Shown one piece after another: positions 1 through 21,877 of a DNA stretch of 64,000 nt. The translations under genes and the position numbers were made by a program. A model generated the notes under the pieces. That model searched no databases. It was not told where the DNA came from and was given only the letters and a program-made list of their open reading frames with translations. Numbering within the stretch: position 1 is the stretch's first letter; every line of letters starts with the position of its first letter. Source of the stretch: Epinephelus fuscoguttatus (taxonomy: Eukaryota > Chordata > Actinopteri > Perciformes > Serranidae); contig NC_064754.1 of assembly GCF_011397635.1 (NCBI RefSeq), positions 31,228,543 through 31,292,542 on the forward strand, read 5' to 3'.

Positions 1-1811
1 CACTTGACCCTACCTGTCATTGCAATCACATATTTGGACAAAACCAACCAGTGGGAACCTGCATACATTGAGAGACGTACTGAAGCCCTCCAACACATCA
101 GCACCGGTGGGCTCAAACGAATGCATTCCTTAGCATAGATACCTGAAATTCTGTTTAAAGCCCTTGTGTGTAAGAAAAGAAGCTCACTGACTTTGGCAGA
201 AGTGGTATTAAAAAAGACATCTGGTAGACAGCAGTATAAACCACCTAACTGCTCAAACTGGCTTCCAATGGATGAGATTCTGTGCAGAGTTGAAAAGCTG
301 TCAGTAGAAGAGTTGTGTATTTATTTTATCTAGGTTACAACAATCAGATTAACAACCGTAAAAATGATGGGTCCTTTGCTGCGTATCCTGATCACAAAAG
401 CAGCGCATGGTGAGACCTGGCATGCATGAACTCATACATAAATGATGGCACACCCTCCTTTAACCTAGATTTTGACTATGTGAGAAGCGATGTTTTTCAT
501 GTACAAATAAATGAAACTAAACTATCACACCTTCTTCTCTCCTTTCCTATCTAAGGCTGACAGCTTATGTTGCCAAGGTGTTTTCCATTGCCAACAATCT
601 GGTGGCGGTGCAAAAGGAACATATCTGTGATGCTGTTGAGTTTCTGATTCACAACGCGCAGCAACCTGGTGGCTTTTTTAGAGAAGTCGCAGCGGTGTCT
701 CATGAAACCATGATCGTAGGTGCACTGTTATTATTAACATCAGTCTTCAACATGATTCTAAACAAAAGACCAAATCAAAATGAAAACCATTACATGTCAC
801 CGGCTGTCATTGATGAATAAACAGAATTTTAATATTGATGATGGTAATAATATGCTTGTGTTTGTGTGTGTGCGTAGGGGGATGTGCGTGGTGTAGACTC
901 AGATGCCTCCATGACAGCCTTCTGCCTCATTGCCATGCAGGAGTCACGCATACTATGTACAGCTACTGTTAATGTGAGTATCTCATCTGTGTACAGTTTA
1001 CCAACCCTACACCCCAATGGTAACTGTAACTAAGGAGGTTATGGCTCGTATTGCGTGGCAGGTCCAAAAAGGACAGCTAACCCGACCCCAGGCTTCTGGG
1101 GGTCCTAAACAAAAATTGGTTTGGGGCTAGGGTTGGGTCGGTTCTCGGTAATACCAATTCGGTTCGGTACTCCGTCTTGGACCGTTTTTTTTTTTTTTTT
1201 TTTTTTTTGAGACCGACCGGACAGCATACTCGGGCGGAGTGTACGCCGCGGAGGTCCGCCCGGTAAAAGTGGACGTCCGCAAGCCCTGTGTGCGCAAAGC
1301 ACGACTGCGGGGACTCCGCTACGCGCACCAGTGTCACACAAAAGACTGTTCTGTTCTGTTCGGCATGTATTTTTCACATCGTGGGGATTTTTCACGGACA
1401 TTTTTACACAGAGTCCGCTCCGCTTATAATACGCCCGTGTCTGTGAGCACCTGTGTCTGCCTCTTCACCAAGCGCACAGCAAGCAGGAGAGAGTGGGGGG
1501 TGGGGCGGGGACTGAGCTAGGGGGTGCGAGTGCGCATGTGCCGAGGCCTCTACTGTAGCCTGGAGTTTGGGAGTCGATAATGGCGAGCAATTTAGTCTCG
1601 ACGAAATCAAAGAATACGCCACTATGGCAACACTTTGGCTTTGAGCCAGATGAAGGAGGCAACCCTTGTTTGCACTGATTGAGTAAGCTGCAAAATTTAT
1701 TTGTAAGGAATAAAAGAAACAACTTGTTACTGTCACTCGGTTGTCGTTTTTTATTTTAAATGAGTCAATTGCGCCCCTAAGTGGCGAAAATCCGGTATTA
1801 CCGACTTGATG

Positions 1812-4800: not shown

Positions 4801-6399
4801 CCTCTTGAAGTTTGCTTCCCCAGGTTTCTTTATGCAATATACACATACATCTTCCGAGAAAAAGTGTAGTGTAATAGCATTGTTAAAGTAACAGTAGAAC
4901 ATATCTTGGCTTGTCAGAAGTATAGAATAGTAATGCATTTACATGTGTCTGTGATTTCCTTAGATTTGTCCCACTGGCCGACACCTAGGGGACGTGTTTA
5001 CACATTAGAGGCCACAGCTTACGCTCTTCTGGCTCTGGTCAAGGCCAAGGTGAGCATGTCCTACTTATCTGTATCAACAGAGCATGCTATAAAATCATTC
5101 AGTGGAGTTATCTTTTATGGTACCACACTACAGGGTAGAAGATTGGTCACTGCAAAGCCTCTGAGCCCTGACAACACTGCTGACATCATAGTTGCTTCTA
5201 TATGGATAACCAAAGGCATATTTCTTGCTAGGTAGTAAAGAATAAAATCCCATTGTAGAGACTTACAACTGAGCCAAGTCTCACTCCAAAGTCATCGAAA
5301 TCTGGCGCTTGGGCAGTGACTTGTGGCATCAGAAACCACCAAAAAAAAGGGTGTCCTTTAATGTCGGCACGGTATGCGGCTGGTTGCCCTTATAGTTTAA
5401 AGGCGCCTGGTGGCATCAGGGGGAAATGCTGTAGGACAAGGATGAAAGCTTAGGCGGTGAAGGTCAGTGGATGGGTCCAACAAACACCAACTTTCAGCCT
5501 AGAGATTGGTGTTTGCATCCTGTAAGTTTCTAAAGCCAGAGCCCCCTTCCACCAAACTTGCCGTGTTGTACCAATGTATGTTCATTTTGAAAGAGACTGT
5601 ATGTAAGCGTTAAATTTCCTGTGAAAACTGAAGTGTATTTTGAAAGAATACAATGCATGTAACAGGCAGTACTAGACACAGAGTCCCAGAACGTCAACAA
5701 CCAACACACCCAGGGTACCTTGCACATCGTATGTGGACGTAGAAAGTCCATGACCAAATGTCAATATGTGATGAGGTCGGAGTGAGAATATGTTGTACCT
5801 CTTGTTTAAGTGAAGTAATCTATCACAGAGACAAGATAAACATTTTTGTTAAACGCAGACATTACAGACAAGTCCCGAAATCTAAGGTATGCTTTGGAAA
5901 TATACATGGATGTATAACAATAAGGGATCAAAATGATATTTCTATTATATAACAACCTTTGTCTCCAACCCCTCTGTTAATAAAGGCCTACGAAGAAGCC
6001 ATACCTATTGTGAGATGGTTCAACAAACAGCGGAGAGTGAAGGGAGGCTATGGATCAACTCAGGTAACCCAGACCTCCAGCTATCGATCTATCTATCTTT
6101 TCGCACTGTTTCAATTCTTTGCTGGGATCAAACTACTTCATTTTCCTTCTCTCCCACACTCTCTAGGCTACTATACTCGTGTACCAGGCTGTAGCAGAGT
6201 ACTGGGCCAGTGCTAAAGAACCAGAGTATGACCTGAATGTGGACATCTTGTTGCCGGGCAGGTCTAGGCCTATCAAGTACAACCTCAACAGGGAAAACCA
6301 CTATGGCACCAGAACATCTAAAGTCAGAACACACACAAACACACAATGTTTCATTAACATCATCATCCATGAAGTTTTCTGTATGTTTCTCCTGCTTAT

Positions 6400-6438
<39 letters not shown>

Positions 6439-7575
6439 GCACATTGAAATTCCCCCAGATCAATGAAATAAACCGGAATGTGAAAGTGACTGCCACAGGC
6501 ACAGGAGAAGCAGTGCTAACGGTACATAAAAAACACTAATTTAGTTCTGAGTTTTATCATCTGTTGATTATTGATATGTCCTTTTTAGATAAGAACAAAG
6601 ACATTTAAATAACCTCACGTGGACAGTACTATTAAGTCTGTAAGCCTATTGACATTATCACAATGCATTTAATGTCTGTGTAACAGATGGTGTCGCTGTA
6701 TTACGCTCTACCGAAAGAAAAGGAGAGTGACTGTCAGAGGTTTAACTTGTCAGTGCAGCTCCTTCCAGGTAATTTGGTGCCCTCTGTCTCATTGCTCACA
6801 TTAATCTATTTTGTATTGACATCTGCCTCCTTTTCTTATGAGAAAAGATTAATTTTCATCCAAATTTTTGTTCCTCCAGAGAAAATGGCCGAGGATGAGA
6901 AGATATACAGGCTGAAAATAACGGTTTTGTAAGTACATAAAAGAAATCATATAAATAAACATTAGATTTAAATGGCTATTTCTGATTTTCAATTTATTTC
7001 CATTATCATCTTTTCGGTGTTGCTATTGTTTTTAGTAGCCCCATGTCCCTGATTTTGTCATTATCCCTTCCCAGTATAGCAACTTTTTTTGCTTTCATTT
7101 CTCATGTTTTCAAAAAATAGAAATGTTGCAGATATCATGGTCACATATTTTTTTGAATTTGTCCGACTCACTTTAAACTCAATTGAACATCCATAGATTC
7201 CAAACCATTTGGCAGCTGGTCTGAAGCTGTTGATTGTATCACGCAATCTTGCAGTTATCAAGTTAAATTTCTTGTCGAGTTCTTGTCCAGATTTAAAGTT
7301 AAGTATTATCTTTAGAAAAAGCAGTTAATTTTCACCACCAAGTTCAATTTTCTCAAAAAATATTGTTTTGTCACAGTTTATAACTATATAGCTTTATAAC
7401 AGTTATGTATTGTAATATTTGATAATATTTTACTACCAATACATTCCTTATTTTATCTATTCATTCCATTTTCTGCACAGGTATAAAGACAGGGAGCGCG
7501 ATGCATCCATGACAATCTTGGATATTGGCATGCTAACTGGCTTCACCCCTAACACGAATGATTTGAGCTTAGTAA

Positions 7576-7636
<61 letters not shown>

Positions 7637-10600
7637 CCTCTTCGTCGTTATCAAAAAAATGATACAATGTTATGTTTGGACGCACAGTTTACATATACAC
7701 TTATCAGCCAAAACATTGAAACCACTGACAGGTTAAGTAAATAACACTGATCATCCCATTACAATTTTCTAATGAAAACCTTTGGTCCTGACATGCATGT
7801 GGATGCCTTTTGACATGCACCACCCACCCAAACACCTTTGCAAACTAAGTACACCCCCTCATAGCAATGGCACTCCCCAATGGCAGTGGCCCCCCAGCAT
7901 GACAATGTGCCATGCCATGCAGCAAAAAGGAGAAATGTCACAAAGAGCTCAAGGCATCAACTGGGCTTCCAAATTTCCCAGATCCCAATCTGAGGTACTC
8001 CTGATCTATCTTGGATTGGATTTGGCTCTGACCTGTTGAGAGATGGACGTAGGACCTCTGAGGGTGTCCCGTGGTGTCTGGCAGATCCTTTGAGTCAAGT
8101 GGGTTGCGAGGTGGTGTGCCTGCACTTCCTACGGATGCTCAATCAGATTGGGATCTGGCTAATTTGAATGCCAGGTTGACGCCATGAGCTCTTTGTCATA
8201 TCCTTGGACACCTCCTAAGCCGTTTTTGGCATGGTGCATTGTCCTGCTGGTGGGGGGCACTGCTATCTGAGAGTTACATTACCATAAGGGGGGTATACTT
8301 GGTCTGCAATGGTGTTTGATTAGATGGTGCCAGTCAAGTGGCATCCACATGAATACCAGGACCCAAGATTTCTCAGCAGAGCATTATGACTTGATGATCA
8401 ATGTTAATCACTTCATCTGTCAGTGGTTTTAATGTTTTGGCTGATCGGTTTATATACACACATATATATATGTGTGTGTGTGTGTGTATGTGTGTGTGTT
8501 TGTAGTTAGCCCAAGGACGTGCTCGCACCATTGCAAAGTATTCGGTAAACCCCGCCCAGTCAGAAAGAAGCTCACTCATAATCCACCTGGACAAGGTAAG
8601 ACATGACTGTTTCCTGCCTCTATACTATTTCTGTCTGCCTTGTTCTTTTTTTTATCTCTACCTCACATTTGTCTGCAGGTTTCTCACACAAGACCAGAGG
8701 AGATCATTTTTAGGATTCATCAGAAGATGAAAGTGGGAGTCTTACAACCAGCTGCCGTGTCTGTCTATGAGTTTAACCATGAAAACAGTAACCGTGAGTC
8801 TCAGAGACACCCAGAAATATATGCTCTGCCTCTGACACACAAACAAACGCGGACCAGGTTAAAGGATTATTATTTGCTGCCAGTAGATCAGTGTATATAG
8901 CACAGTGGTTAAGAGTGTGTTTTCACATTCTCCAGATATACAATCCTGCTGTGAGCCCAGAATATCCTGCAAGTATTTTTTGTTTTTTTCTTTCCCACTG
9001 CAGAAACACATTGTGTGAAGTTCTACCATCCAGAGAGGAGAGGTGGTGAGCTACTGCGAATCTGTAGAAATGATGAATGCACATGTGCAGAAGGTAAACA
9101 AGATGATGTCTAACTAAAGACTGAGGCTGTATATGCATAATTGTGCATCTCAAATCTTGACTGAATAACTCATGAATATTCTTAAATTGTGACTTAGATA
9201 GAGCAGCACTCACCCATCAACTCATACAAACACATATCTTATTTAATCAGGCCGTCAGTTGTATATTTTATGGAAGCTGAGAACGGCCGTGCTTGCTGTT
9301 ATTTTTCCAGCGACATTATCTCGAGATCAAATTAGTTATTTCATTTTATCAAGATAAAGCTTGTTTTCTCGTATTGATAGATTAATTTATGTCGATATTT
9401 GAGAAAATTTGTAGAAAAGACTCCCGCACACTGTCTAACTTACAAAAATAATTTTAGTGCTGCTGCAGCATTTCAGAGACTAGACCTTCATCACGCAAAC
9501 AGTTTTGTTACCATTTCATAGGTAAATTCTTGAGAATAAATGCTTGAATTCTTATTGTTAACTTGCAATCTCTCAAAAAACACACATCCAAATCCTGGAC
9601 GTACATAACAAAAATGAACTTACAGGGGTACGTTTAAATCAAGAATAGGTATCAATACACAAAAGAATACTTGATAATAATGCTACAAAGCCTCCACAAT
9701 GTCACAGAGTAAAAATTACATCCAAATATGCCAGACAATGGTCAAACTACACTCTGCCCTACTGAAGAAACAAAAGGCTGATTTCTCTCGACAACAAGAT
9801 CATTTATCATAAGAAAACAACATCTGTTTTCTCAAGATCACAGGGTGATAATAGAGAACTTAGTGTTAGACCTTGTTTGAAGCACTAGAGCCAAAGCATG
9901 AGAGACAACCAGAATTTATATTCCCCCATTTTCAGGTGTTACGGCAATAAAGTGGTAAAATGGTGTCCTCTTGTGTGCACAAGAGGTTACCACAGGCTCC
10001 ATCCACATCGAGATTGCAGTTACGTGTATTACGAGCGTGCCAAATGCACTTTAGGTGCATTTTCTTTAGGCCAGACTCCCTTGGCACACCTGTGGCACAC
10101 TTGGGCTCGGGGTGAGATGAGAAAGAATACATTATGATATGACAAGCGTGGCTTAGATTGAAACCCGAACAATCTTTATCACATCATCTTGCTCGTCACA
10201 ACAACACATCTCCCTGTATTATAAACAAAAATGTGGAGCTCCAGCTGACATTTTGGCCAGCCTTGTTTAGAAAAAGATGACACATGCAGCTGTTAGCCCA
10301 GTACCCAGTGTTTAGGTGCAACACTGGCAAGAACAGAGGATCCTGTGGGAGTTTAAGTGGAGCAATAAATTTTAAGTGATTCACAATTTTTCTTGGAGCT
10401 GTGTGAACTTTTTTTAACGAGTCTGTCTCCAACATACCTGTTGATGTGCAGAAGAAACTGCAAAGAATGATTCATCAAAACAACATGTTTGATGTGTACA
10501 TAAGCAACCGGAGGAACAGTTATTTTACAATAGTCTGATGCTGGTTGCACAAATGGAACCAGCAGATCTGCCGTGCGTAATTGTGGCTTTACAGTGCGCA

Positions 10601-13176
10601 ACATCAGTATTTACTTTGTGTCTACTGTTTATTTCCAGAGAACTGTGGTGTACTAAAGAAGGGCAACGTCAGCAATGTGGAGCGCACAGCTAAGAGCTGT
10701 GAGACTAAAGTGAGCAGTAATATAGATTTTGGTAAGAGTTTCTGTATGTTTTTGTGCGTGACTGAGAAATTACAAGAACAAGTAAGCAATGGAGCCAGTG
10801 AGCTAACAACATGCAATTTGTCTTTCCTCAGTGTACAAAGTGAGAGTGGAAGATTTTATAGATGGCTTGTCCACGGACATTTACACAGTGCTGGTACTGG
10901 AAGTCATCAAAGAAGGTGGGTATTTCCATCTTTGAACGTAAAGTACCTCAAAGGTGAGATACCACATTTCAGTCGTAAGTGCTATATCGTAGGCAACTGG
11001 ACTTGCTTGCGTTTCTTGAAGATGTTTTGCCTCTCATCCAAGAAGCTTCTTCAGTTCTAAATGACTGGTACGAAGTTGCAGGCTATAAACCCTGTGTGGG
11101 TGGGAACCTTTGCAGAGTCAGAGAAGGGACACTCCTTTGAGGACAACAATGTGCACATCTTGGCCATGGAGGAAAGATGGTTTGAAGGAGGAGTAAAAGA
11201 AGCCATCTACGTTAAGCTGGAATGACCATCGTTAAACAGAGGGGGCGGCTTATGACACTATTTATCCCCCACCTACAGTGCAGTCTTGGGATCCCTCCCC
11301 AGATGACTTCACGCCCATTTACCCCAGGTCCCACCTGACCCTAACGACTCACATGGTAGCCAGGTGGGTCAACGGCTCACATTATGACCTTCACGACTCT
11401 GAAACTAAGAGCTCACGTGACCCCTACAACTCTGCAAGGGTTCCCACCCACACAGGGTTTACAGCCTGCAACTTCCTACCAGTCATTTAGACCTGAAGAA
11501 GTTTCTTGGATGAGAGGCGAAACGTCTTCAAGAAACACAAGCAAGTCCAGTTGCCTACGATACAGCACTTACGATGACCATGACCTGGATGACTGAGAAT
11601 CTTCACCAATACATTTCAATCCCTTTCTGATTTTGACGTTCACTTCAGATCTCCCCAGAGCTGCTTCCAGCCACAATTATACTGGGAGTACGTGAGAATT
11701 CAAAAGTAATGTTTCGAAGTTGTGCTTGTTGTTAGGCATCTAATATGTTTAAAGGAAAAATGTAGTTGATTACATGTTGCTCTGATCATCACTTCTATCA
11801 GATATGATCGTACTCACCAAAATAAAAGCTGTGATCTGAGCCCAAAATCTGCTGAACACAGAAGTATTGCTAGTTTTAAACTAGAAGAGCCCTCAGAGAT
11901 CGCAGACCTCCTCCAAGGCCATATGCCCTATACCACAATGTTGACGATGCATACGTAATCCAAACTTCCCTGTCCTTAGTTTCGGTAGCCGGTGGGCAGC
12001 ATATGCATGTTAGTCCCCCCACTTTCATGTCCCTACCAGCTAGCTGATCAACTGGTGTAACATTTTTCAAACTGGTTTGATATTAAGCCAAACACTGGAC
12101 CGGAACCACTACTATCTAGTCACACTTGACTCAGCAACCCCTCTTGAGTGGAACATAATGACACTCTGTCCTGACAGTCAATGAGCATCCAAATATCATG
12201 TCATATCACATAAAATCAGAGCTGTCCGTCCACACGAAATCCATTATTCACGTCTGTTTCATCATGTAAACAAACCACACAAATATGCCGCTATTTCGGC
12301 CCAGTAACCTCTATGTTTGCTTGTGATGTCCGAGATAGCCAAGTGCAGGCAATCAAGACTATCAATGTCGTATATTTCAAGTTAAACAAAAGGGCAAAAT
12401 AATTTGACCATTTCTTCTTTGACCCATGCTACACCCCTTTACTAAGTTTCATGAAAATCAGGCCAGCACTTTTCCCTAATCCTGAAGATAAACAAACAAA
12501 CATACTGAACCAAAAGCATGACCTCTTTGGTGGATGTAATAAACCATAGTTTTCTGTTAAGTATGTTCTCTCTGTTCTTTGTTTTAACCACAGGAAATGA
12601 TGACGTAGGCCCTCTGAATAAACAGCGCACATTCCTCAGTTATCGGCACTGCAGAAAGACTTTAGGTCTGAGCAAAGGCAAAACCTACCTTATCATGGGT
12701 GCATCCAAAGATATTTACACAGACCAACAGAGACAATTGTAAGTTCGTTGCATCTGTGCATGTGTGGTGTGTTTGTTCCATCTGTAATATTGTCAGCATT
12801 TAAAACATTTTACCTGTCTGTGTTTTGTGTTGCTAAAGTACATACTCGCATGCAAATCATGCTTATCTTTATCAGTTTTCGTAGTGTTGTTTGTGAGTAA
12901 TTATTATTTATCTTTTTTTTTATTTTTTTGACTTTGTACTTGCCATTATTCTTCTGGTCATTCCTTTTTCATTATTCCTGCAGTTAGAGAGAGCTGTTTA
13001 CATGAAAACCCAGTGTTTCTTTCACTTTCTCTAGGTATCAGTACGTGCTGAGTGAGAGAAACTGGATCGAGTACTGGCCCACAGATGCAGAGTGTAAAAC
13101 CGCTGTATACAAGCCTACCTGTGCAGGCATATTGGAGATGGCCCAGAAGTACACACGAGATGGATGTCAGCAGTAG
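1..13176 (+). CDS. c3: Complement C3, C-terminal 650 codons (19 exons, 5' end outside window)
   Basis: C3 is the central complement protein: after cleavage, C3b binds surfaces through its thioester and feeds convertases and opsonisation; it is secreted. Exons read here: 1-106, 334-409, 556-715, 878-973, 4673-4823, 4964-5049, 5986-6063, 6167-6322, 6459-6521, 6687-6768, 6880-6928, 7481-7571, 8506-8595, 8679-8793, 9004-9093, 10639-10731, 10832-10915, 12594-12738, 13035-13176. They join in one open frame of 1953 nt ending in TAG. Order: end of thioester domain (LTLPVIAITYLDKTNQWE; VSHETMI with the catalytic His codon at 701-703; GGYGSTQ), CUB, MG8 (DASMTILDIGMLTGF), and a Cys-rich C345C domain ending DGCQQ. 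The thioester CGEQ motif lies upstream of the window. No frameshift or stop was seen. Teleosts carry several C3 copies, so which one this is cannot be told; C4, C5 and A2M fit less well. Confidence 0.93.
1128..1920. mobile_element. Non-autonomous hAT-like element (MITE) with TIRs and 7-bp target duplication
   Basis: The left end reads TAGGGTTGGGTCGGT and the right end is its reverse complement (ACCGACCCAACCCTA at 1906-1920). The 7 bases TTGGGGC occur directly outside both ends (1121-1127 and 1921-1927), as expected of a target-site duplication; hAT elements normally make 8 bp, so the class is a best guess. The interior has T-rich tracts and no transposase frame. Confidence 0.75.
3475..3685. 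repeat. Palindromic repeat, copy 1 (internally deleted)
   Basis: This 211-bp unit is framed by ACTCCCCCAATCCC and GGGATTGGGGGACT, which are inverted repeats, and contains a near-perfect inner hairpin around 3504-3553. A longer copy lies at 33438-33698. Relative to it, this copy has lost most of the left arm between the outer end and the inner hairpin. Confidence 0.7.
4040..4590 (+). pseudogene. Decayed LINE ORF2 C-terminal fragment
   Basis: The + strand reads RRRVFENHNLKAKTKF and, after a stop near 4221, RCFRRILNIYGR. These resemble the region behind the reverse transcriptase domain of fish non-LTR elements. At about 4535-4580 another frame gives CGSRIGLLDHLRTHKD, which resembles the C-terminal zinc-finger end of such proteins. 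Stops and frame changes show it is dead. The clade cannot be fixed from this fragment. Confidence 0.5.
5279..5788. repeat. Interspersed repeat B, copy 1 (TCTCACTCC inverted ends)
   Basis: The unit begins TCTCACTCCAAAGTCATCG and ends in an imperfect inverted copy (GATGAGGTCGGAGTGAGA). The first half is clearly similar to 63645-64000, with the shared blocks 'gcttgggcagtg', 'tcctttaatgtcggca' and 'ttctaaagcca'. It sits in C3 intron 6. No transposase was seen and the family is not recognised. Confidence 0.6.
6329..6437 (+). repeat. AC tract and facing (GT)n tract inside C3 intron 8
   Basis: An AC-rich tract (6329-6345) starts six bases inside the donor at 6323, and a (GT)n tract (6402-6437) lies 21 bases before the exon at 6459. 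In the transcript the two would be complementary. The normal pyrimidine tract before this acceptor is short. Confidence 0.8.
7576..7629 (+). repeat. (AC)n microsatellite directly after donor of C3 exon 12
   Basis: About 27 AC units begin five bases inside the intron, right after the donor GTAAG at 7572. A TG tract (8470-8500) abuts the acceptor of the same intron. Confidence 0.9.
7698..8450. mobile_element. Tc1/mariner-derived palindromic element, defective
   Basis: Inverted ends of about 55 bp read 'cagccaaaacattgaaacca' on the left and its complement 'ggttttaatgttttggctga' on the right, with TA flanking both sides (7696-7697 and 8451-8452). A short + strand stretch near 7920-7990 resembles the end of a Tc1 transposase (RAQGINWASKFPRSQS). 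Related sequence then follows in the opposite orientation, so this looks like a rearranged, non-coding derivative. Confidence 0.65.
8470..8500 (+). repeat. (TG)n tract at acceptor of C3 exon 13
   Basis: The TG repeat lies where the polypyrimidine tract would be; exon 13 starts at 8506 right after TTTGTAG. It can pair with the AC tract at the other end of the intron. Confidence 0.85.
9094..10638 (+). other. C3 intron 15, no recognised element
   Basis: This is 1.5 kb of AT-rich intron sequence between the exons ending at 9093 and starting at 10639. No coding signal, repeat ends or known family were identified. Confidence 0.5.
10973..11574 (+). mobile_element. Penelope-like element remnant (GIY-YIG tail) between inverted repeats
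   Basis: The + strand frame at about 11110-11225 reads SEKGHSFEDNNVHILAMEER followed by WFEGGVKEAIYVKLE, then a stop and PSLNRGGGL. This is the conserved end of the GIY-YIG endonuclease domain of fish Penelope-like retroelements, with a TGA in place of an expected Arg codon. Arms of about 145 bp (10973-11117 and 11430-11574) are inverted copies of each other, as in Penelope pseudo-LTR arrangements. The reverse transcriptase is absent. It lies in C3 intron 17. Confidence 0.7.
12420..12548 (+). repeat. LINE/SINE 3'-tail-like repeat, copy 1
   Basis: The string 'agtttcatgaaaatc', then a run of 'aaacaaac' and 'ctctttggtggatgtaataa' match a widespread animal repeat tail (RTE-type LINE or dependent SINE, from memory). 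A second copy is at 31640-31890. It ends 45 bases before C3 exon 18. Confidence 0.5.
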
Positions 13177-17249: not shown

Positions 17250-17503
17250 AGTATGTTGTCGGCCAGAAATAAAGACAGCGAAGAAGAAGACAGTGACGTA
17301 CTTCCGTAGCCCAGACGCTGTTCTCGTTCTTGAAGAAAAGACTCCAACTTTAATTGACAGTCTCGGAGACAGGCTCCATCAAACCCTGTGAGCCAGCCCG
17401 GGAACACAGCGACAGCGAAGTGACGACTTACTCTTTAAACTTTGTTCACGTATTAAAAAAAGCTGGTTAGTTTCCAGGTCGAGGTACTACAGACGACGTC
17501 GCT
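17250..17503 (+). promoter_or_regulatory. asf1b promoter / 5' UTR region
   Basis: The segment before the asf1b start includes a CRE half site with an ETS-like core (TGACGTACTTCCG near 17293-17305) and is CpG-richer than the upstream transposon. The transcription start cannot be fixed from sequence. Confidence 0.4.
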
Positions 17504-20500
17504 ATGGCCAAGGTACAAGTGTTAAACGTCGCTGTGCTGGACAACCCGAGCCCATTTGGAAATCCTTTTCAGTTTGAAATCACGTTTGAATGCATGGAGG
17601 ATTTACCAGAAGGTGGGTATTGTTTTCTGGTACTGTGTTTTCTCGTTCTTTGTGATATGTTAGCTGTGGAGTACTAGCTGCCCTTCTGGGCGCATTCCGC
17701 ATCAGTGCTAACATTAATTCACTCGTTACAGGTAGATGGGGCGCGTCCTAAGTAGCTGATAAACCCGCCATATTGTTCGACCATATATAAATACTAGCTA
17801 TCGTTGAGGCTGCTCAGTGATAGCTGTTGAAAATTGGCGCTGGCGCGTTTGTGCTCTGCGCCCCGCCTCCTGCCTGCAGTGATTGGTTCATGGACGTTCG
17901 TCGGAGGTTTTTCTAAGAAGCTGATTGGTTGATCACATTGTGTTTCTGTAGCAACAGACAAGCTGAACGATTTGCCGCGAACCGAGGACAGTTAGAAACA
18001 ACAGGAAAGGGGTAGTATATGTTCTGGGGATGCATACAGTCAGTTAATCCATGGTGACACTAACTGTTTAGTTACCATGGAAATATAAAGTGCCATCACA
18101 AAGTGTTATAAGATGGAGGGATTGATTGGAGGGCAGTTACGTGAAGCAGTATCAGTCTATTATTATGTTTGACTGTTGATATGTAGACATTGTGGAACTG
18201 TTTTTTTCTATGCTTATCTACAGTTTGAGGTTATGTCACTTGACATCACAGACTCTGAACATACAGAATACAGAACAACAAAATGCTGGAGTGAATCTGT
18301 ACAAGTACTGCAAACAAAGGGCACTGAACTTTTCAAATATGTTAGCACCCCAAATGAAGTTCTGTTCATCTCATTTCTGTTGTGGTCGGTTTAAAAGCTT
18401 AAAAAAGTCAGACATAAATATATAGAGTGTATAGGGGTGACTGTGTTTAACAAATTTAACTTACTATTTTAGCCATGATCTGTACCATAGCCTCATATGA
18501 ACTGTACTATAGTCCCAATGACCTTTTAAACACATTTAACTTGTGTTAAACTTATGTCAAATGAGGCTATGGCACGGTTCATGGATAAAATAATAGGTGA
18601 AATGATATGTCAAAATCTGTGCTAAGAAAATGAACCTGTTTGGCCTGGCTTGGTGCCATTTAGGAATTCACCAGTCCAACTTTTTTTCCTCCTGATGTCG
18701 CCTCTGAAACCTGAGGATAAGTGCATTGTGTGGAGCTCAACAGCACTCATTTTGCTTTTGAATTACGCACAGGTCTGAGACGAAAGTCGAGCATTGGTTA
18801 AACACTGAGGATATTCTGTTGTACACAGTTTAAAAACAAATCTGAGTGGTTCAAAATGTCCCTGTCACTTTTTAAGCCCTCTTATTGTGTGTCATGTCAG
18901 ATCTGGAGTGGAAGATCATCTACGTGGGTTCAGCTGAGAGCGAGGAATACGACCAGGTCCTGGACTCTGTGTTAGTTGGCCCGGTACCGGCTGGCAGACA
19001 CATGTTTGTGTTTCAGGTGAGTGAGCTGTAGTCACATGTTACTTTTGCTGTCATACATCTAGACCACGGGACTCATTGAATATTAGGACTAGAAATCAAA
19101 GACATGTAGGTAGGTGGTTGTTCTTCTGCTCTGTGCTGCTTTGATAGCGTGATTACTGTGGTGTACTTTGATCTGATTTCTCCCTCTTTGTGTTCCTCTC
19201 TGCCCCGTCAGGCTGATGCTCCCAACACAGGGCTGATTCCAGAGAGTGATGCTGTAGGAGTGACTGTTGTCCTTATAACCTGCACCTACCGTGGACAGGA
19301 GTTCATTCGTATCGGTTACTACGTCAACAATGAATACACAGACCCTGAACTACGGGAAAACCCACCTCTCAAACCAGACTACACTCAGGTAACACACGTA
19401 CACTCAGGGATGATAGTCATGGATAGAGTAGTGTGGGACCTGCTCACAACAATATGCACTTACATGTATGTGGCCTGAATTGCTAAACAGATTTTGGTGT
19501 TTTATATTAATGGTATTTTTAAAAAATTACTGCAATTCCTGAGCTGCAGAGAGCTTCAACATACAGTACACTACATAGGCAATGCTTATGAAAGAGATCT
19601 ATTGAAATATGCACTGTTTTTACCGCCCTCTTGTGCTCTGAAAGTGACATTACAGGTAACAGCAGCATCAAGAAATGAGTACAACGTGAACTTTTAAAAA
19701 TAAATATGTATATTCTTATTTTTTCTTTCCTTTTTGTAGTTGTCTTTTATTCTTAAGGAGAAAACTGAATATGTTTTGGTTTTGTACTGCCGGTCAGTCG
19801 AAACAATTAATTAAAAGACAACAACTTATTCTCTATAAAACTGCAAAGGGCATTCTGCACTGTTTTCTGACATTTTAAAAATTTGACAGATGATTGATTA
19901 ATACTAAAAAAACAACAGCTTAATCACTAATAAAGATAGTCCCCAGTTGCAGCTATGTATCGCTCAATGAAGGACAAGTGCCAGTGTTTCCCAAAGGAGG
20001 TTTTTCCAGTAGCGGTGCTGAAATGTGTGTGTGTGTGTTTTACTTTACTTTACTTTTCAGCACATCTGCTGACATGTGAAGGGTTTTAGACCTGTTTTTG
20101 TAAAACGGATAGGCAATATGGCCCTAAAATAATATCACAGTATTTCAGGGTATTTTTGCAATGATATTTTTGACAATATGATAAATTATAAAAAAAAATA
20201 CATCTATCTGGGGCGGCTGTGGCTCAGAGGTAGAGCAGGTTGTCCACCAATCGGAAGATCAGCCGTTTGATCCCCAGCTTCTCTAGTCTGCACGTCGATC
20301 CATCCTTGAGCTAGATACTGAACCCCAAATTGGTGTCGGTATGTGAGTGTGTCAAAAACTGAGTAGCAGGAGGCACCCTGTATGGTAGGGTAGAGCACGC
20401 ACATCCAAGATATTACAGGTGCAGGACTATCAAGCAAACAGACACAAAACAGAAAACAAAGACAAACAGCACAGTGTATCGCAGCCTCTAGAGAAGCGTT

Positions 20501-21877
20501 CAGTGTGATGTATATGTGCCACGCACATATAGAACCTGATAAAAGAAGCTCTGTATGAGAAATCAGTTTTCTAAATGCAAACCAGTGGAACAGAAGTTAA
20601 CGCAATACTGGCCATGACTCTCTAAAGCCCCATTTCCACCAAGCAGTGCGGTTCAGTTCAGTTCGGCACGCCTTTTTTCTGTTTCCACAGTGAAATGTTG
20701 TGGATGGTACCAATGGAACCATTCTGTACCGTCCCCATTTTTGGTCACCCCTCTGTTGGGGTACCTAGCACACAGATCTGGTACTAAAAGGTGGAGCTGT
20801 GAACACTGCAGTCTGTTGACTGGTCAATAGCAGGCGGTCACTCTGCTGAGGGCTGAGTTGTGGCTGGTTTTGAGGCTCATGTGACCACTGTTCATACTGT
20901 GGAGAGTTTTATTAGTTAACTGTAACTATAAAATGAATTGATGTTGTGCTGCCTCTCGCAGCAGCTGTAGACTGAGAAAAAACAACTTAATTCACTAGGC
21001 CGTCTGCCGGCAACTTTTAAGGTGGAACATTAACTTGCACAAACCCACTATTTTTAAATATCCCATGGAGAGAGACTCTCACTGCAGCCTGTTTTATTTT
21101 GTTCTAAAAATGTTGATGTGCAGCCTCATTCTATGGACGATAAACTAGGTGTAGACTAATAAAAGAGGAAGTACAGTGAGTGAGCAGTGAGCGACAACAA
21201 CCCCCACACAGAGTACTGTTCGCCGTGGAAACACTAGGGTCTAGGTACCATGTCTGAGGGGTTACTTTTGGTGCCAAAGGTATCATACCAAAAGTGTTTG
21301 GTGGAAACGGGGCTTAAAGTAGGCTCTCTGTGTGGAAGAGGTACCGTTATGTGTTCACCTGACAGGGATCCACTCATTTGGAAACAGTTGTATAATATCC
21401 TCTGCAGTTGAGGAGAAGCTTTCTGTAATCTGAGAAAATAATCTCTGAGATGCCATCAAGGTTATCTCAGTTTTGGCTCGGAAAGCCTGCATCGCAAGCA
21501 GGAGGTGTGGACGTTAATAGACGAGGGTGTTTACCAGGCAAGTAGGGTCAAATGAAAAGATGCAGTTTAGTTTAATAAAGAAAGTGTTTGTGAAACCTGA
21601 CCCATATTTGGGACTAAAAGTCAGGATGTGTCGATTACAAACACTAATTCATTCCACTGATGTTGTTTCATTCCCTCAGCTCCTGAGGAATATTCTGGCC
21701 TCTAACCCCCGTGTCACCCGCTTCCATATCAACTGGGAAGGCTCGGCAGACAAGATGGAGGACAGCGAGAACGTCGACCCGTCCCCCAACATCAGCAGCA
21801 TGCTCCCCCCGTCCTGTATACCAGGAAAGATGCCGCCTCTCGGGCTGATGCCGGACAACTCCATGGACTGCATGTAA
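17504..21877 (+). CDS. asf1b: Histone chaperone ASF1B (complete, 4 exons, 199 aa)
   Basis: ASF1 binds the H3-H4 dimer and passes it to CAF-1 or HIRA during replication-coupled and independent nucleosome assembly in the nucleus. Exons: 17504-17612, 18901-19016, 19212-19388, 21680-21877; the sum is 600 nt with no break. The first 156 residues form the immunoglobulin-like core starting [18 protein letters not shown]. Key residues known from the family are present: E36/D37 (HIRA and CAF-1 site), D54, V94 and R108 (H3 site). The short tail carries CIPG and ends NSMDCM; the CIPG block and tail fit ASF1B better than ASF1A. The start is the only ATG that gives the family N terminus. In human, ASF1B also lies beside PRKACA. 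Confidence 0.97.
17613..18900 (+). other. asf1b intron 1 with promoter-like block and a foldback
   Basis: The first 350 bases are GC-rich with two ATTGG (inverted CCAAT) motifs near 17880 and 17920, a TATATAAAT-like stretch near 17785 and TTGGCGC at about 17834. A small foldback repeat lies at 18461-18600. The rest shows nothing recognised. Confidence 0.5.
18461..18600. repeat. Small foldback repeat (about 140 bp)
   Basis: The left arm 'ccatgatctgtaccatagcc' and the right arm 'ggctatggcacggttcatgg' are near-complementary over about 40 bases and separated by about 55 bases. This would fold as one hairpin. It is probably a tiny MITE. Confidence 0.55.
20210..20400 (+). mobile_element. tRNA-derived SINE
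   Basis: 'ggggcggctgtggctcagag' followed by 'gtagagcaggttg' gives an A-box-like start, and 'ccgtttgatcccc' a B-box. The body ('agatactgaaccccaaattg') matches a common fish SINE seen from memory. It is not a functional tRNA gene. It lies in asf1b intron 3. Confidence 0.75.
20626..21314. mobile_element. PIF/Harbinger-like MITE with TAA target duplication
   Basis: Inverted ends 'agccccatttccacca' and 'tggtggaaacggggct' are flanked on both sides by TAA (20623-20625 and 21315-21317). A 3-bp TWA duplication is the hallmark of PIF/Harbinger. No transposase frame. It fills the middle of asf1b intron 3. Confidence 0.7.

Follow-up and report, generated by a model that had tools for sequence, protein, structure and literature searches.

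Complementary AC and TG tracts adjoin the donor and the acceptor of a complement C3 intron that holds a fold-back transposon in Epinephelus fuscoguttatus

One intron of a complement C3 gene of Epinephelus fuscoguttatus carries an AC tract directly behind its donor and a complementary TG tract directly before its acceptor, with a fold-back DNA transposon lying between the two. The pair of tracts is real and well placed with respect to both splice sites. We give an even chance to the reading that the intron belongs to the AC/GT type: in the pre-mRNA, the complementary tracts abutting the splice sites would base-pair and loop the intron body out of the way, bringing the donor up against the acceptor. 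This closeness would help intron definition where the polypyrimidine tract is poor. It is plausible that the C3 intron exemplifies a type already known in zebrafish, the inner transposon being a new twist.

The C3 intron and the placement of its tracts

The window, that is, the whole stretch of 64,000 nucleotides that was analysed (contig NC_064754.1), starts within the TED exons of the C3 gene, and the label "intron 12" used in the preliminary description was counted from the window edge and does not correspond to the gene's own intron number. The joined exon translations matched human C3 (phmmer, E 6.5e-101) and ran colinear through the exon junction, where NDLSL/LAQG aligns with DDLKQLANG of human C3, and the exons flanking intron 7572-8505 contain A2M_recep, the A2M receptor-binding domain (Pfam, E 1.8e-23). 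On the 3′ side of C3, open segments at window positions ~17471-21874 presumably resemble the ASF1 histone chaperone.

Table 1. Coordinates of the C3 intron, its neighbours and two further introns read from sequence (window positions unless a locus is named; a slash marks an exon-intron boundary)
Feature	Position	Strand	Remarks
Upstream intron, boundaries by eye	6323..6458	+	short AC-rich donor end GTCAGAACACACACAAACACACA plus (GT)18
(GT)18, candidate rival partner of the AC tract	6402..6437	+	21 nt before 6458, the upstream intron's last base
C3 exon 5′ of the intron	7481..7571	+	RYKDRERDASMTILDIGMLTGFTPNTNDLSL
C3 intron, phase 0, 934 nt	7572..8505	+	TTA/GTAAGA ... TTTGTAG/TTAGCC, GT-AG sites
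(AC)26.5	7577..7629	+	directly 3′ of GTAAG, from intron base +6; 100% match (Tandem Repeats Finder)
Fold-back DNA transposon, approximate boundaries	7690..8456	+	arms 7693-7785/8363-8455, 7776-7858/8289-8371, 7935-7993/8143-8201
Candidate branch-point region	8437..8470	+	CTGAT 8441-8445 in the transposon end, plus the TATATACACACATATATAT loop next to it, partly single-stranded
TG tract before the acceptor, complementary to the AC tract	8471..8503	+	87% match (Tandem Repeats Finder)
C3 exon 3′ of the intron	8506..8595	+	LAQGRARTIAKYSVNPAQSERSSLIIHLDK
ArfGAP gene intron, AC/GT, 124 nt	L043 (G000:C1:10715437-10722437), ~5544-5667		
Anoctamin-like gene intron	L067 (G000:C2:48286656-48288356)		AC donor, (TG)19

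The preliminary description had placed about 27 AC units five bases inside the donor, which the tandem repeat search bore out. It had also seen a TG tract ending five bases before the acceptor AG; the tract is there, but the distance is four bases, since strict alternation ends at 8499 and is followed by TTGT and then by the AG at 8504-8505. The TG tract is broken by TATG and one TTT, and its longest pure stretch is 8.5 units. Along 33 nt, the AC and TG arms reach a complementarity of 94%.

To estimate how often such an arrangement would arise by chance, we used two densities of pure AC/TG tracts of at least 8 units: 10 tracts in 86,945 bases (nine in the window, including the two in question, and one in six transposon loci) and 28 tracts in the 135,220 bases surrounding 20 AC-donor loci. 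With seven positions allowed per splice site, a rightly oriented tract would then fall at a given donor with a probability of ~4e-4 or 7e-4, and likewise at a given acceptor, which gives a joint probability of ~1.6e-7 or 5e-7 per intron. Over the 200,000 introns assumed as the genome total, 0.03 to 0.1 joint cases would be expected; independent placement is therefore unlikely and a poor account of the arrangement, although the case was chosen for its look.

A second C3 copy in tandem (L002) lies 77 kb upstream and contains the same intron, 932 nt long, with the same transposon and with (AC)25.5 and (TG)19.5. From the AC tract to the transposon end the two introns show 18 differences and one gap over 820 aligned bases. 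The arrangement would therefore predate the C3 duplication, unless it spread from one copy to the other afterwards. As the two gene copies are 97% identical over 2.7 kb, their agreement is weak evidence of selection; the tract lengths differ between them, and the window copy has the interruption in its TG tract. Downstream of the intron, at ~2694-3539 of L002, about 850 nt are without alignment to the window gene and probably represent an insertion in that copy.

The acceptor at 8505 has a pyrimidine content of 0.53 between -20 and -4, with a longest run of 3, and in this respect the poor pyrimidine tract reported earlier is present. It is not special, however: among 11 acceptors measured in the gene, three are equally low, the other two ending at 877 and 6686 (0.53 in each), so that a weak pyrimidine tract alone is no sign of a special mechanism. 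The window contains no AC tract of at least 8 units before 7577, and the introns ending at 877 and 6686 hence have no such AC partner within themselves. The acceptor sequence at window positions 854-877 is itself TG-rich (GCTTGTGTTTGTGTGTGTGCGTAG).

These observations bear on a simpler account, in which the tracts are neutral microsatellites produced by slippage in a short intron that tolerated them, the transposon came later, U2AF reads an ordinary weak acceptor and any pairing is incidental. We consider this possible but doubtful. The unlike tract lengths of the two copies, the interrupted TG tract of the window copy and the equally poor acceptors elsewhere in the gene are in its favour, whereas the joint placement at both splice sites, unlikely if the tracts are independent, and the keeping of the tracts in both C3 copies speak against it.

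Predicted folding and the upstream GT tract

Folding the intron, a check proposed in the preliminary description, gave full pairing of the two repeats in the isolated intron, with about 30 expected pairs between them. The isolated intron, at -444.9 kcal/mol (20 shuffles, z -16.6), was predicted to form a single giant stem in which GTAA is open and the TG tract is buried. Much of this energy is due to the transposon, since versions of the intron with the transposon shuffled reach only -275 to -287 kcal/mol. The isolated folds of the two C3 copies agree in their outermost pair, between intron base 6 and the base third from the end, and in a predicted distance of 8 steps from the 5′ to the 3′ splice site. 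The AC:TG expected pairs stayed at about 30 whether the transposon was present, left out or shuffled (eight shuffles), and fell to 4-16 when the AC tract was scrambled (four trials). The idea that the transposon is required for AC:TG pairing was thus rejected in silico. When the flanking exons were included, GTAA was again predicted to be open and the TG tract closed, the short loop before the TG tract was largely open, and in the window copy the first part of the AC tract was often unpaired.

The earlier proposal that AC/TG pairing joins the splice sites therefore holds in the folds of the isolated intron, but not so clearly in a context of 2.6 kb. The intron at 6323-6458 contains a GT tract whose complementarity to the AC tract is 100% along 36 nt, compared to 94% along 33 nt for the TG tract at the acceptor of intron 7572-8505. 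In the fold of positions 6100-8700 the AC tract had 33.8 expected pairs with GT 6402-6437 and 17.2 with its own TG tract. By itself, intron 6323-6458 folds no better than its shuffles (z -0.91). In this model the upstream GT tract is the better AC partner, which counts against pairing within the intron. The AC tract might accordingly pair mainly with the upstream tract, looping out four exons (as read by eye) and favouring skipping or back-splicing, with the acceptor TG tract being secondary. Besides its better complementarity and the preference in the context fold, this reading gains from the presence of the GT tract in both copies, longer in L002, where (GT)29 occupies the equivalent upstream site, and from its being transcribed first. 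We nevertheless regard it as very unlikely, since the 53-nt AC tract can partly serve both partners and the upstream intron may be spliced out before the pairing takes place. On the AC/GT reading, the stem within the intron would form in the cell despite the rival pairing with this GT tract.

Instead of forming a duplex, the tracts could also serve as binding sites for proteins, with hnRNP L on the AC tract by the donor and TDP-43 or a CELF protein, CELF proteins being binders of UG tracts, on the UG tract by the acceptor, tuning the use of the intron. This seems to us quite improbable; a point against it is that the TG tract and a large part of the AC tract would be concealed in the predicted stem. 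The intron before CFTR exon 9 has, to our knowledge, no AC partner at its donor. As described in excerpts of PMC12171016, its (TG)mTn tract resembles the C3 intron in having a TG repeat directly at the acceptor, but differs in that it binds TDP-43 and goes with missplicing; this binding by the UG-rich sequence before the exon 9 acceptor, given there as needed for the missplicing, is a point in favour of protein sites, as is the naming of AC repeats with hnRNP L and of GT repeats with TARDBP as known pairs in an excerpt of PMC13174678.

As to the branch point, no AG occurs between 8424 and 8503, and the AG closest to the acceptor on its 5′ side ends at a distance of 82 nt in the window copy and of 57 nt in L002; the branch point is thus probably located in the transposon end or in the adjoining loop, as judged from these AG positions. 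The best branch-point match of this region, CTGAT, is predicted to be paired in the fold, and this speaks against the modelled stem simply helping splicing. A function of AC:TG pairing in splicing is plausible, with the GT tract upstream and the counts at the sampled AC donors speaking for caution; the stem, were it to form, might aid splicing and might reduce the need for U2AF2.

The transposon between the tracts

The element between the tracts occupies ~767 of the 934 nt of the intron, which would be 167 nt long without it, and its inverted arms are 76-83% complementary. A genome search with the transposon (genome size 1.047 Gb) gave at least 131 match rows on both strands, the best 40 of 2471 candidates having been scored; the rows are pieces and not copies, and the counts are lower bounds. 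With dispersed copies, shared termini and long inverted arms, the element is a fold-back (MITE-like) DNA transposon, and we take its termini to be Tc1-like. A 20-base piece of it gave no matches against viral contigs. Elsewhere in the C3 region, at 10973-11118 and 11429-11574, there is another inverted repeat with 146-nt arms that are 94% complementary and 310 nt apart, possibly a further fold-back element.

Six other copies of the transposon (L003-L008) have like termini and no AC/TG tracts at their ends, from which it follows that the hairpin belongs to the transposon family and the tracts to the intron; the possibility that the tracts are part of the transposon was rejected on this ground. 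We also rejected the possibility that the transposon made the intron, as an introner would, since ~118 nt separate the donor from the start of the element and ~49 nt separate its end from the acceptor, and the six other copies are without this donor and acceptor context as well as without the tracts. Introners in Amoebophrya, according to excerpts of PMC7789003, are like the C3 intron in that their ends are joined by complementary inverted repeats and in that they have MITE-like features; they differ in that the introns themselves are the repeats, with inverted repeats of 8-20 nt and many non-canonical sites. The C3 intron, by contrast, has GT-AG sites and carries its transposon inside.

If the C3 intron is of the AC/GT type, the original intron would have been short, at ~167 nt, and the fold-back transposon would have been inserted later between the tracts, leaving the distance between the splice sites unaltered because the element folds on itself. 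A stronger version of this history would make an AC/GT-paired intron a safe landing site for fold-back transposons, RNA structure defining the intron from end to end, with the terminal stem and the hairpin of the element jointly keeping the 8 steps as the intron grew from ~167 to 934 nt and the element end supplying the branch-point region. Taken as one joint claim, we hold this to be rather unlikely.

Introns of the same type in this genome and in other systems

In order to see whether donors with AC tracts are a general feature of this genome, we searched for GTAAG within 6 nt of (AC)12, using the motif read backward as a control. The motif was found 199 times forward and 344 times in reverse, and the control 467 and 181 times, respectively; overlapping matches were apparently counted a single time on one of the strands and several times on the other, and the proper comparisons are thus 199 with 181 and 344 with 467. 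There is no clear enrichment over the control for GTAAG adjoining AC tracts, and the donor motif was rejected as a genome-wide signature. For CAGGTAAG the counts were 9 forward and 14 reverse against 3 and 4 in the control, which, compared in the same manner (9 with 4, 14 with 3), amounts to a weak excess, four of the nine forward matches forming one cluster on C16.

Among the matches listed there were 62 distinct AC-donor sites, from which we read the two C3 copies and 41 others, 19 being left out. Around these 41 donors, TG tracts of at least 7 units numbered 8 in ~61 kb downstream and 8 in ~33 kb upstream, so there is no downstream excess. At three of the 41 sites a TG tract ends within 6 nt of a YAG, and at two, beyond the two C3 copies, AC and TG tracts appear to occur together in one intron. 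The gene at L043 is an ArfGAP (Pfam ArfGap, 2.8e-24), and its 124-nt intron folds at -67.3 kcal/mol with nearly all of its length in a single stem. The same locus has a second AC donor and TG acceptor pair with an apparent small exon between AC and TG, and the joined exon peptides around this pair matched no family in a Pfam scan. At L067, in a gene that we assume to resemble anoctamin, a likelier acceptor lies ~50 nt beyond the (TG)19. Judging from these readings of genomic sequence, this genome would have the AC/TG intron type in three genes or more, but the sample is without enrichment. The lack of a downstream TG excess and the little or no enrichment of GTAAG beside AC tracts are in favour of neutral microsatellites, while the two additional same-intron cases count against them.

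The composition of the C3 intron and the order of its AC and GT tracts are, as we understand it, those of the zebrafish type. Introns of zebrafish that carry complementary dinucleotide repeats at their two ends and are spliced without U2AF2 were reportedly described by Lin et al. in 2016 (Genome Res 26:12). In excerpts of later papers, hairpins formed by dinucleotide repeats from the two boundaries of an intron are stated to mediate splicing without U2AF2 in zebrafish (PMC9198270), and such structured introns to be prevalent in zebrafish genes (PMC9508853); the structured-intron study is also cited in the excerpts of PMC7404189, PMC5766209 and PMC10809524. As far as these excerpts go, the zebrafish paired introns and the C3 intron share dinucleotide repeats at opposite boundaries; a hairpin between the repeats, as in zebrafish, is predicted for the isolated C3 intron. 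Complementary repeats at opposite intron boundaries, the mark of the zebrafish type, are found in the window copy and also in L002. The C3 intron differs in having a fold-back transposon between its tracts and a competing GT tract in the upstream intron. No paper on this intron, or on any C3 AC/GT intron, was present among the literature matches listed.

If the stem does not work, what is left is a chance placement of two microsatellites, with a transposon lying between them. If it does, the two C3 copies, with their different tract lengths, shared transposon and competing GT tract, would constitute a natural test of intron definition by repeat pairing, and it would become possible to test, in a familiar immune gene, whether introns of this kind tolerate transposons whose insertion would otherwise make them longer.
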